Source: a virus. From it: DNA of 32,408 nucleotides. The position numbers were made by a program, and so were the translations under genes. Under the pieces are notes generated by a model. The model was not told the DNA's origin, made no database searches, and saw only the letters and a program-made list of their open reading frames with translations. The stretch lies in IMG/VR virus record IMGVR_UViG_3300030060_004061, positions 1 through 32,408 of that record. The stretch is one strand, 5' to 3'. Shown here in pieces: positions 13,298 through 18,528 of this stretch (position 1 is its first letter; the number at the start of each line of letters is the position of its first letter).

Positions 13298-13963
13298 TTA
13301 ACCTCCGAGGCGCTTTTCGTGCATTTGAAACAGTCCAAGAAGCTTGTCCGCACGACTAGGATTCCGCTTCTTGATTCTACTAAGAGCGGGTTTCGTTTCT
13401 GCGAACAGATTGTGAACCCCCCCAATAATTTTTATATTATCCAGCTTCTTGGACAGAGAGATGTAAAGGTCTTTATCCTCCTTGTCTTGAGCGGCATCGG
13501 ACGGCGTCTCGTTGACGGTCGAAGTGGAGGGTTCTTGACCGGAGCCGCCGCCCGAACTGGATTGCTCCAAATTCTGCTGCTTCCTCGGTACAGCCTCCAT
13601 CTCGTTGGCGCTTGCATACTCACCACCGGACAAGCCGATGCTTGCAAGAGCCCTACCGATTGCCGAAGTTTCACAGTTTTCTAGGGCACTGGTCTTGTTG
13701 ACGTGTCCCTGTCCTCTGATTTCCTCGGCTGTCCCTGCACCGATAACGTGACCATTATGGTCTGTTACCGTCGCTTTGACAACCACCCGTTGCCCATCAT
13801 CGACCATGACTTGCGTGTCGATGCCACACTCAAAGCCAAACACAGTGCGGAATGCCTCCATCCGGTGCACGACTTGTGTATACTTCTTGCCTCCCTGCTG
13901 CTTGACGCCATGCGTCTTGTTCAGCTCGGAGACCAGGCCCATTGCATCAATTACCTTGCTCAT
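13298..13963 (-). CDS. ERF/Rad52-type single-strand annealing recombinase
   Basis: The start is ATG 13963 (MSKVIDAMGLVSELNK), seven bases after GGAGG; a longer reading upstream lacks support. The 221-aa protein has the core YTQVVHRMEAFRTVFGF, a beta-rich section, and the motif HVNKTSALENCETSAIGRAL followed by ASIGL-GGEYASANE. The ETSAIGRAL-ALG motif is characteristic of ERF-type annealing proteins, which pair complementary single strands during phage recombination and genome circularisation. The C-terminal 80 residues are a Ser/Gly/Gln linker and a basic helix. Its neighbours are an SSB-like protein and a PD-(D/E)XK nuclease. Together they would make a Red-like recombination module. Confidence 0.8.
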   Translation of the reverse strand: MSKVIDAMGLVSELNKTHGVKQQGGKKYTQVVHRMEAFRTVFGFECGIDTQVMVDDGQRVVVKATVTDHNGHVIGAGTAEEIRGQGHVNKTSALENCETSAIGRALASIGLSGGEYASANEMEAVPRKQQNLEQSSSGGGSGQEPSTSTVNETPSDAAQDKEDKDLYISLSKKLDNIKIIGGVHNLFAETKPALSRIKKRNPSRADKLLGLFQMHEKRLGG

Positions 13964-14121
13964 TTTAGTTCCTCCGTTACCTTCGTTTTGTGCAAATGGT
14001 CCGCCATGAGGTGCATGAACACCCCCCACGCTGCCTTTGTGTCTGTTAATTCTTGCTCGAGCACCTCAACGCGGTGCTCGAGTTCGTCCAGACGTTGCTG
14101 ACGTTCTTCTTCCTCTGACAT
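13960..14121 (-). CDS. Short coiled-coil protein (53 aa)
   Basis: The ATG at 14121 overlaps the preceding stop and its own TGA overlaps the recombinase start (ATGA). The product (MSEEEERQQRLDELEHRVEV..., then LEQEL) is a clear heptad leucine zipper in its first half, followed by WGVFMHLMADHLHKTKV. It probably dimerises. Position suggests an accessory subunit of the annealing protein, but this is inference. Confidence 0.65.
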   Translation of the reverse strand: MSEEEERQQRLDELEHRVEVLEQELTDTKAAWGVFMHLMADHLHKTKVTEELK

Positions 14122-14210
14122 TACTTCATGCCAGCGGCCGTAGCAGTGGCGTCAATAATCGCTACGCCCCATGCAAACTTCACAATAAACGGCATTGCTA
14201 TTGCAAACAT
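14121..14210 (-). CDS. 29-aa hydrophobic membrane microprotein
   Basis: A perfect ribosome site (AAAGGAGG, then five bases) precedes ATG at 14210. The 29-aa peptide (MFAIAMPFIVKFAWGVAIID, then Ala/Thr-rich, ending GMK) is one membrane span. Its TAA overlaps the next ATG (TAATG). The strong site, exact coupling and composition argue for a real gene. Possible roles include an early membrane toxin, a superinfection-exclusion peptide or a replication anchor. None can be chosen. Confidence 0.65.
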   Translation of the reverse strand: MFAIAMPFIVKFAWGVAIIDATATAAGMK

Positions 14211-14224
14211 GATGTCCTCCTTTC

Positions 14225-14449
14225 TCAGTCAATAAGCCACAAACGGTAGGTGCCGTCATCGAGCTTTCGTTGCGTTAATTTAAAACCGTAATACTTAGCC
14301 AAAGACTGCGTGCGATTGGCTTCGTAGTCTTTTTTGACGGCGAAGCTGTCACCAACTTTCATGGACAAGAGCAGGCTTTGGAAGTTGCTCTTAACCCCAC
14401 GCTTTTTTTTCGGCGGCATTGGGATATTCTTTTCAATCACTACATTCAT
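14225..14449 (-). CDS. Small conserved phage protein, DUF7303-like (copy 2)
   Basis: ATG 14449 follows GGAGG by eight bases and overlaps the nuclease stop. The 74-aa product has VIEKNIPMPPKKKRG, a MKVGDSFAVKK motif, and a C-terminal DGTYRLWLID. It shares order and key residues (IP-P, VGDS, terminal aromatic strand) with the gene at 12447-12680, so the block carries a diverged pair. Biochemical role unknown. The basic first half suggests nucleic-acid or nucleoprotein binding. Confidence 0.75.
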   Translation of the reverse strand: MNVVIEKNIPMPPKKKRGVKSNFQSLLLSMKVGDSFAVKKDYEANRTQSLAKYYGFKLTQRKLDDGTYRLWLID

Positions 14450-15339
14450 CTGTCTAACCTCCAGATTTGTTTGGCTATTGCCAGGATGTCGGGGCCATGT
14501 CGCCCCACGATTTGCCCATAGTCCGGTTGAACTAAAGCAAACAGGTTGCTCCACTTGCCTTCAGCGGCACGGAGTAAATTCTGAATGACGAGCCAGCGTT
14601 GACGCACCTGTTGGTAGGACTCCTCAAGTGCGTGAGGCTTAAGCGCATCGCAGTTGCTAGCGTCTACAATGTTGAAGCCAAGCGGTGTCACGAACAGCAG
14701 CCCCGGCTCGTCACCGGTTGCCTTCCAATACACGGCTTGCTGCATGATTTGTTGCGGGGTAGGCTCTGTTCTGGGCTTGGGAAAGCGCCAGGAACGTGTG
14801 CCATCCTTTTTAAGCGGGTTGCGGGTGGGGAAGCTGCATTTGAGGTCTACCTGTCGGCCACCGCCAGTGTAGTCCTGAAACAGCATCGTCGGCACGTCAA
14901 TCAGCTCGTCCTGATGCCAGCGTTGGAACTCACCCTCAAACTTAGTGTCGCCGTAAAACTCGCGTATGCCGTTGACGGCGTGCTGCGCCATCTCCGGGAT
15001 AATTTCTTTAAACTTGTGATATTCCTCGGTGTCCTTGCCGTTGTCCCAGTCGCGCGGCTTGTAGAACTCAAATTTATTCATGCCTTTACGCACAGCGTCG
15101 GCCATATCCATAGGCTTGGTGGGGCCAGAGATAGGGCTGTAGTCATGGACGCCATGCGCCATGTCCGCTATGCTTTGTACTATCTGCCCAGCCCGAGGAC
15201 GTGCTGCGAATGGGAATGACCGGCCAAGCTCTTTGCGCATATAGAGCTTCAATATGTGCTCATCAACGGGCTGCGTTGCACCCGATGCGCTAGTGTGGGA
15301 GCTGCCAAACGGCTGTCTATATACTGGTATTTCGTGCAT
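14446..15339 (-). CDS. PD-(D/E)XK exonuclease-like protein
   Basis: The start taken is ATG 15339, four bases after GGAGGG; an ATG at 15357 lies in the promoter side and is less likely. The 297-aa protein carries the nuclease core: FEGEFQRWHQDELIDVP (131-150), an Asp156 strand, then VDLK with Asp165 and Lys167, and a later QQIMQQAVYW motif of the Q-xxx-Y type seen in RecB/Cas4-like and phage recombination exonucleases. It would resect DNA ends to give single strands for the downstream annealing protein. It is the first gene of the leftward block, directly below a good promoter. Confidence 0.75.
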   Translation of the reverse strand: MHEIPVYRQPFGSSHTSASGATQPVDEHILKLYMRKELGRSFPFAARPRAGQIVQSIADMAHGVHDYSPISGPTKPMDMADAVRKGMNKFEFYKPRDWDNGKDTEEYHKFKEIIPEMAQHAVNGIREFYGDTKFEGEFQRWHQDELIDVPTMLFQDYTGGGRQVDLKCSFPTRNPLKKDGTRSWRFPKPRTEPTPQQIMQQAVYWKATGDEPGLLFVTPLGFNIVDASNCDALKPHALEESYQQVRQRWLVIQNLLRAAEGKWSNLFALVQPDYGQIVGRHGPDILAIAKQIWRLDR

Positions 15340-15358
15340 GTAACCCTCCATAACCACT

Positions 15359-16185: not shown

Positions 16186-16345
16186 CTGTCATTGGCATTG
16201 GGAACATGGGCGCAACTTGCGCTACCATTTCTGCTGCCCGAACCTTGCATGCTTCTTCTGTGGCTTTGAGGCCAGTTGTGTCCTCGAACACAACGCAGTT
16301 GGTCGGGTATGCAGCCATGCACAGCATAATCATAGCCTTAAACAT
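16151..16345 (-). CDS. Small exported-type protein with cysteine pairs
   Basis: This 64-aa protein starts seven bases after AGGAG. Its N-terminus (MFKAMIMLCMAAYPTNCVVF) looks like a signal peptide. The mature part has the pattern T-EACKVRAAEMVAQV and YQCEAPDA, allowing a disulfide. It overlaps the convergent 15979-16185 gene by 35 bp. Its layout (signal, charged helix with Cys, final C) matches 18607-18807. Function unknown; action in the periplasm or outer envelope is likely. Confidence 0.65.
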   Translation of the reverse strand: MFKAMIMLCMAAYPTNCVVFEDTTGLKATEEACKVRAAEMVAQVAPMFPMPMTANYQCEAPDAV

Positions 16346-16402
16346 ATCGTTCTCCTAGTCGTTCAGCCTACCATGTTGGCGGCGTGTGGTCAGGGCCGTA
16401 AA

Positions 16403-16432
16403 AAAGAGGCGCAGATTGCTCCGCGCCTCTTT
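16403..16432. terminator. Bidirectional hairpin terminator
   Basis: A 10-bp stem AAAGAGGCGC (16403-16412) pairs with GCGCCTCTTT (16423-16432) around a 10-base loop. Leftward it continues into a run of six T (complement of 16400-16405), a standard intrinsic terminator. It would end the leftward XRE-block transcript and could also stop rightward read-through from 15410-16185. Confidence 0.75.
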
Positions 16433-16611
16433 GAAAAACACTCGCGTGTCTCCCTAACAAGACAATATATGGACAATCTATACACTTATGTAAAGATGAT
16501 TTCCATGTCCGTGTCCTCCTCTTTACAGACGGTTTGAAATGTGATATTTGAGTTCTCATTGTCATGCGGCAGAACTGCTTTGCAATGTCATTGCGATGCA
16601 CCATGCAAAAC

Positions 16612-16627
16612 TTTTTATATATAAAAA
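16612..16627. repeat. AT-only 16-bp palindrome
   Basis: TTTTTATATATAAAAA is a perfect self-complementary stretch made only of A and T, lying 15 bp from the first CATTGCATTGT element. It could be an easily melted origin element, or a -10-rich promoter region. Confidence 0.7.
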
Positions 16628-16642
16628 AGACATAAGCCTGAC

Positions 16643-16683
16643 CATTGCATTGTCAGGTGCATTGCATTGTATACAATGCAATG
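16643..16683. repeat. Three CATTGCATTGT elements (two direct, one inverted)
   Basis: CATTGCATTGT occurs at 16643-16653 and 16660-16670 (17 bp apart), and inverted as ACAATGCAATG at 16673-16683. Each is itself a doubled CATTG. A degenerate relative (TGCAATG-TCATTGCGATGC) lies at 16581-16599. The arrangement is that of protein-binding iterons or operator half-sites. Confidence 0.8.
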
Positions 16684-16687
16684 CACC
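16656..16687. promoter_or_regulatory. Perfect 32-bp palindrome beside the XRE regulator gene
   Basis: The half-site GGTGCATTGCATTGTA (16656-16671) is followed at once by its exact reverse complement (16672-16687). It starts 5 bp after the XRE stop. It could be a dimer or tetramer operator, a cruciform origin element, or an RNA 3' hairpin. No T-run follows, so it is not a standard terminator. Confidence 0.75.
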
Positions 16688-16692
16688 AAGTT

Positions 16693-16866
16693 TTACTTAT
16701 ATTCGAGTTCGAGTGCTTGCAGTGCAAGCTGCACGGTTCGAGGTATGTCCAGCTCTCCGCTTTCGTAGTACTGGACAGTGCGCCGGGCCAGCCCTAGACG
16801 TTCTGCAAATCTCTGTTGCGTCATGCCTAGCATTTCACGGCGAAGTTTAAGCTCGTCGGCTTTCAC
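16693..16866 (-). CDS. XRE-family helix-turn-helix regulator (Cro/C1-like)
   Basis: The GTG at 16866 overlaps the preceding TGA (GTGA). A GTG at 16881 would add five residues inside the upstream gene. The 57-aa protein is one HTH domain: LKLRREMLGMTQQRFAERLG, then LARRTVQYYESGELDIP, the standard XRE pattern (TQQ-FAE-LG-...-T-Q-YE-G). It lacks an oligomerisation or cleavage domain, so it is Cro-sized. It probably represses its own transcript or switches early to late expression. The palindromes at 16656-16687 and 18506-18520 are candidate binding sites. Confidence 0.85.
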   Translation of the reverse strand: MKADELKLRREMLGMTQQRFAERLGLARRTVQYYESGELDIPRTVQLALQALELEYK

Positions 16867-18498: not shown

Positions 18499-18528
18499 AT
18501 AATAGGCGCAATGGTTGCGCTTAGTCAA
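18499..18528 (-). promoter_or_regulatory. Promoter of the leftward XRE block with operator palindrome
   Basis: On the minus strand TTGACT (18528-18523) and TATTAT (18504-18499) match sigma70 boxes at five of six positions each, 18 bp apart. The spacer holds an inverted repeat GCGCAA-TGG-TTGCGC (18506-18520), centred where a bound repressor would block RNA polymerase. The XRE protein from the same operon is the obvious candidate. Confidence 0.7.

Follow-up and report, generated by a model that had tools for sequence, protein, structure and literature searches.

The window analyzed here spans an entire 32,408-base virus record (G+C ~51%), whose TerL is ~50% identical to that of HTVC010P-type pelagiphages and gave at least 599 matching stretches in viral contigs; 80 of these TerL matches, at 83–99% identity, were kept for comparison. 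Bacterial genomes returned only partial, gammaproteobacterial TerL matches of 39–45%, and no DNA similarity to the region was found among cultured phages. In aquatic environments, HTVC010P-type phages occur in very high abundance, yet their regulation is poorly known. Published phages of this type have no DNA polymerase, and it is assumed that they depend on host RNA and DNA polymerases (PMC10504331).

Near the middle of the window, a small minus-strand gene encodes an XRE regulator of 57–62 aa, depending on the choice of start codon, whose HTH_3 domain scores 36.1 bits against a Pfam cut-off of 23. When the XRE profile was searched against the PDB, the sequence matches included Aca1 (E 4e-4) and 434 Cro (E 9e-4); no relatives of the protein were found in bacterial genomes. 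In phiCbK, an XRE protein acts early and mainly as a repressor (PMC10688885). Next to the gene in the window lies a group of dyads and repeats, of which the largest is a palindrome designated O1 (Table 1). An earlier note on this DNA had placed this element beside an XRE regulator, and the two do adjoin; however, since XRE is on the minus strand with its stop codon 5 bp from the palindrome, the element lies 3' of the gene, past the stop codon and outside the XRE promoter. Elsewhere in the window, TTGACT-N18-TATTAT at 18499–18528 on the minus strand is likely to drive the leftward early operon; its spacer holds a dyad, GCGCAACCATTGCGC, that differs from both O1 and the second dyad O2 and may bind another repressor. 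Autoregulation at this early promoter (18528, minus strand) through GCGCAACCATTGCGC was considered and rejected, as the sole comparable relative, G034, has a different upstream region. Recombination-type genes occupy 13298–15357 (minus strand), including a 243-aa product read as ERF-like and a 303-aa product read as a nuclease; neither protein had a Pfam match, and the 243-aa protein matched only PHROGs of unknown function.

Table 1. Features at the XRE-adjacent locus, in order of position in the window
Feature	Position	Strand	Remarks
HEG 3' relic, FYGPDHTPPTW then stop	16368–16403	−	88% over 33–34 nt to relatives
Terminator-like hairpin and T run	16403–16432	−	In the sequence replacing the HEG body
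HEG 5' relic, MEII then FT and stop	16486–16506	−	Behind a strong Shine–Dalgarno, AGGAGG
P+, promoter-like TTTACA-N17-TATTTG with extended -10 (TGA)	16522–16550	+	8/12 consensus
CATTGTCATGCGGCA	16557–16571	+	Directly 3' of P+
Predicted untranslated P+ transcript, ~140 nt	16557–16697	+	Predicted to end at O1 and a TTTT tail
O2, perfect dyad GCAATGTCATTGC	16582–16594	.	Predicted second XRE operator
T/A tract, AT-only palindrome TTTTTATATATAAAAA	16612–16627	.	Separates O1 from O2
Dyad CCTGAC-N9-GTCAGG	16637–16657	.	Contains the first CATTGCATTGT copy and abuts O1
CATTGCATTGT, direct copies	16643–16653 and 16660–16670
CATTGCATTGT, inverted copy	16673–16683
O1, 32-bp perfect palindrome GGTGCATTGCATTGTA/TACAATGCAATGCACC	16656–16687	.	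Predicted XRE operator and terminator-like hairpin
XRE/HTH_3 regulator, 57 aa	16693–16866	−	Pfam HTH_3 E 6.7e-9 and 16-sequence alignment

The 32-bp perfect palindrome, the two direct and one inverted copies of CATTGCATTGT, and the AT-only palindrome described in the earlier note are all present. What it had read as a degenerate TGCAATG cluster is not merely degenerate, as it includes the perfect dyad O2, which is the sole match to this dyad in the window genome at ≤1 mismatch. The longest gapless palindrome arm measures 16; when the window was simulated 60 times under a first-order Markov model, the longest was 11 and the mean 7.4. Likewise, CAATG/CATTG occurs nine times in 16551–16692 where 0.39 would be expected (a ~23-fold excess), and four times at most in every stretch of equal length outside 16300–16800. 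Both the palindrome and the CATTG repeats are far above chance. The exact palindrome core had no match among viral contigs, and no Rfam family was found for the element at the gathering threshold; weak miRNA-like Rfam matches on the palindrome were discarded as chance. A candidate promoter within O1 (16650, TTGTCA-16-TACAAT) was also dropped, no equivalent being seen in other types of the locus.

On the far side of the dyads, the window carries the remains of a homing endonuclease gene (HEG), of which 16368–16506 retains the first four codons and the last eleven; the body is missing, and the gene is hence classed as a relic. The 26-nt stretch surrounding the 5' relic is 100% identical to HEG-bearing relatives, and ~90 bp, including the terminator-like hairpin, lie between the two relic ends. 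The dyads are intact in the window without the HEG body. Relatives carry intact HEGs of several kinds at this place, many sharing the N-terminus M[EQ]IITR[QK]EA, with GIY-YIG (Pfam, one), endonuclease-VII-like (PHROGs, two), and HNH-like classes represented. A reading of TGACAATGAG...GTAAAGAGGAGG as a HEG leader only was dropped because the opposite strand reads as a promoter too.

Related contigs have the same arrangement at the corresponding position, i.e., XRE, O1, T/A tract, O2, and a plus-strand sigma70-like promoter (P+) aimed back through the dyads, with dyad sequences that differ between them. In the search of related phages proposed in the earlier note, the layout and the dyads recur, but the words differ and the exact core was not found. 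All 21 close XRE relatives identified in viral contigs (76–92% identity) have GCAATG/CATTGC-type dyads directly 3' of XRE. A fuller alignment of these type A loci gave the order XRE, O1, T-rich tract, O2, conserved stretch, AGGAGG, and HEG start, and the type A dyad GCAATGNCATTGC is restricted to the locus at ≤1 mismatch in the A-type records searched. In L001 and L002, the nearest kin of the window (TerL 99% for L001), the element reads GGCGCAATGCATTGTATACAATGCATTGCACC in the XRE direction, with changes relative to the window that are matched on both arms and preserve the palindrome.

More distant members, collected by TerL, XRE profile, and PDDEXK, were assigned to types B to H, with types and O1 boundaries picked by eye. 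XREs of the same clade in these contigs share 33–68% identity with the A-type XREs or with one another (TerL 81–87% to A-type), and the dyads at the same place include GCAAGTT/AACTTGC, AACAAGTT/AACTTGTT, ACATAGCTATGT, GCACTGCAATG, and others; a T/A tract is also seen at the same position in other types. In 14 of the 17 assembled contigs holding the locus, no inverted repeat on the whole contig is stronger than O1; dyads are shorter in G001, G035, and G036. In type D and in L187, an additional gene may separate XRE from O1. In L187, located 1.5–2.6 kb past the PDDEXK gene, the array has an endonuclease on either side: an HNH-like gene separates XRE from O1, and the second lies beyond P+. O1-type palindromes are also present in type F and G contigs, which are short and in which no XRE was found. 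Distant PDDEXK relatives (~40% identity) show no such element. One record, G004 (IMGVR_UViG_3300025889_000115, 64,029 b), contains two TerL and two PDDEXK matches (L191, L203), and may represent two joined genomes or an assembly artefact.

With 8/12 matches only, P+ in the window was assigned by position: it sits where types B, C, E, and F have their 11–12/12 consensus promoter. On the strand opposite XRE, this promoter reads TTGACA-16-TATAAT in types B, C, and E (TAAAAT in L063) and TTGACA-18-TAAAAT in type F, and for eight contigs, including two of 33–35 kb, P+ is the sole 11–12/12 promoter on either strand and is always directed at O1. Versions in types A, D, G, and H are weaker and found at the same place. 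Since a terminator-like hairpin precedes P+ in type D, P+ looks like a separate unit. At the position of CATTGTCATGCGGCA, relatives of types A, D, E, and G show GTCACGCGGCA or a near variant. Within type F, L100, L101, L102, L105, L107, and L110 carry the DnaA box TTATCCACA within the consensus promoter's spacer, and their palindrome has no adjoining XRE gene.

Across 15 representatives, the spacing from the -10 element to O1 ranges from 76 to 137 nt, and no Shine–Dalgarno ATG frame, nor any credible coding frame, was found in the P+-to-O1 stretch. The predicted P+ transcript would be ~110–180 nt long across types and run into O1. Types A and F carry a U run past O1 on the plus strand, and C, E, and D_G019 carry one on the minus strand; O1 resembles a bidirectional intrinsic terminator. 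For this hairpin-then-U-run pattern, the strong cases are F (+), A (+), E (−), and D_G019 (−), and that of the window is weak (AAGTTTTACTT). Overall, the promoter is clear in types B, C, E, and F and the plus-strand terminator in types A and F, with both weak in the window. Strong hairpins are predicted in every type, and folds outside O1 differ between types.

We also evaluated whether the two dyad clusters of a given genome use the same words. The number of 7-mers shared between a contig's own O1 and O2 exceeded that shared by O1 with the O2 of other types; it summed to 61 over nine representatives, a value matched in 0 of 20,000 permutations (p ~5e-5), to be read in light of the fact that the metagenome contigs are related, so that samples are not independent, and that independent types are few. 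The excess was large for types B, C, D, and E, moderate for A and F_L107, and small or absent for F_L100 and G. Such sharing is consistent with both clusters being used by a type-specific DNA-binding protein, and could also stem from O1–O2 RNA pairing. Co-divergence of XRE and dyads beyond general phage divergence was not significant after correction for TerL (partial Mantel r 0.18, p 0.08), and divergence of the dyad region was better explained by TerL than by XRE in this partial Mantel test.

Taken together, these sequence comparisons suggest that the palindrome is probably part of an XRE operator array set in a short, convergent transcription unit that is not translated. The locus shows the parts of such an arrangement, which recur, occupy one locus per genome, reuse dyads within a genome, and are without coding potential. 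The layout recurs, in altered words, at an equivalent place in the genomes of a large group of aquatic phages that have not been cultured. Under this model, P+, a sigma70-type host promoter on the plus strand, would fire at the 3' end of the XRE gene, and the first ~100 transcribed bases would hold both dyad clusters, with O2 near the start, O1 at the far end, and the T/A tract between. XRE, as a product of the leftward early operon, would bind both O1 and O2 and block P+ by a roadblock or a DNA loop, whereas P+, when free, would yield a short untranslated RNA stopping at the O1 hairpin. In several types, this hairpin would seemingly terminate the leftward XRE operon too. We infer XRE binding, the resulting repression, the transcript, and the start and end of this transcript from the arrangement of the locus. 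For the role of the RNA, our likeliest guess would be local antisense or transcriptional interference on the XRE operon and on any endonuclease gene inserted opposite. The earlier suggestion of a switch bound by the XRE protein is therefore the one favored by the comparison, given the 3' dyads in relatives, the reuse of words in two clusters, and the confinement of the type A dyad to the locus.

A broader and more tentative possibility is that the locus constitutes an oop-like small RNA gene at a fixed place, with the contigs' best consensus promoter and a fast-changing, private repressor–operator pair, in lineages without known lysogeny genes or DNA polymerase, where it could control replication start or early-to-late timing. 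No report of a regulatory RNA in phages of the HTVC010P kind was found in the literature searched, and, if real, this RNA would provide one for the group. The locus also represents one testable switch, composed of the 57-aa regulator, its predicted 32-bp site, and the putative short transcript, and supplies a natural series of predicted repressor–operator pairs with differing words.

Not all observations point toward the operator array. The co-divergence of dyads with XRE is not significant, types F and G have O1-type palindromes without a detected XRE, and the window itself combines an 8/12 P+ with a weak plus-strand U run. These same type F and G loci, which retain O1 and P+, would be expected if P+ yielded a structured, oop-like small RNA with O1 and O2 kept as stem and terminator, as would the consensus promoter, the terminator-like O1, the missing coding frame, and the strong hairpins predicted across all types. 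We nevertheless consider this unlikely, because O1/O2 word sharing peaks where XRE is present, folds outside O1 are dissimilar between types, most inspected departures from pairing are minus-strand wobbles and not wobbles of the P+ RNA, and no Rfam family matches. Alternatively, the element could regulate the leftward HEG cassette, with XRE controlling an adjacent selfish gene. The HEG begins just past O2 in long-enough A-type loci, L063, L121, L125, and type F, and stands behind a conserved AGGAGG in type A; yet the array remains in loci without a HEG (L061/L062, L140, L141, L130, G019, G020) or with a relic (the window), and P+ is directed away from the HEG, with no comparable minus-strand promoter found there, which makes this scenario improbable.

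The earlier note had also raised the possibility of an origin recruiting host initiation proteins, and DnaA or phage proteins could in principle open the AT tract between the dyad clusters, which flank it beside the gene of a DNA-binding protein; HTVC010P-type phages have no DNA polymerase (PMC10504331). A DnaA box, TTATCCACA, does lie in the P+ spacer of all five aligned type F loci. However, no such box was found at the window locus or in the scanned A, B, C, and E loci, and cumulative GC skew, proposed as a check, tracks the orientation of genes and shows no sustained change of direction at 16.6 kb, the GC3 skew of plus-strand genes being equal on the two sides of the locus (-0.059 vs -0.059). 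An origin is thus unsupported in the window: the element does not look like one, and we regard this function as very improbable. Slightly less probable still is that the element acts only as a bidirectional intrinsic terminator between convergent operons. Its location 3' of the XRE operon and the U runs that follow O1, be it on one strand or on both, would be accounted for, but O2, the reuse of dyad words, the extra arm length, and the adjacent consensus promoter would be left unexplained.

The predicted XRE operator array can finally be compared to known systems. The window shares with HTVC010P-type pelagiphages a TerL ~50% identical, a similar gene order, and the lack of a DNA polymerase (PMC10504331), but HTVC010P shows no matching XRE in the set of genes inspected and lacks a comparable palindrome at the corresponding position, and was for these reasons rejected as a model for the locus. 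As the predicted unit would, lambda pO-oop-tO combines a short RNA, a promoter convergent to a regulator gene, and a hairpin terminator at the 3' end of that gene, and includes a LexA repressor site near the promoter (PMC5869508); pO activity affects replication (PMC3985674). In contrast, lambda OOP overlaps 52 bases of cII, while the RNA predicted here would stop just outside the XRE coding region, O1 being 5 bp beyond the XRE stop in the window, and an oop-type overlap with the end of the regulator's coding sequence is not seen. The operator is also large, doubled, and apparently served by the neighboring protein, unlike that of lambda oop. Promoters of anti-CRISPR loci controlled by Aca similarly associate a small phage HTH protein with a strong host-type promoter and one or two inverted repeats (PMC9410906). 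However, Aca sites include one within the core promoter of an acr-aca operon, whereas the dyads here are downstream of the -10 element, with no inverted repeat in the core promoter, P+ faces the regulator gene, and no acr or credible frame was found on the predicted transcript. As the locus lacks a defining feature of each, we assign it to neither lambda oop nor Aca. Unlike operators of the 434 Cro/lambda type, those predicted here lie 3' of the regulator gene and are not set in a divergent promoter pair; as in these systems, an HTH_3 protein would act on repeated dyads.
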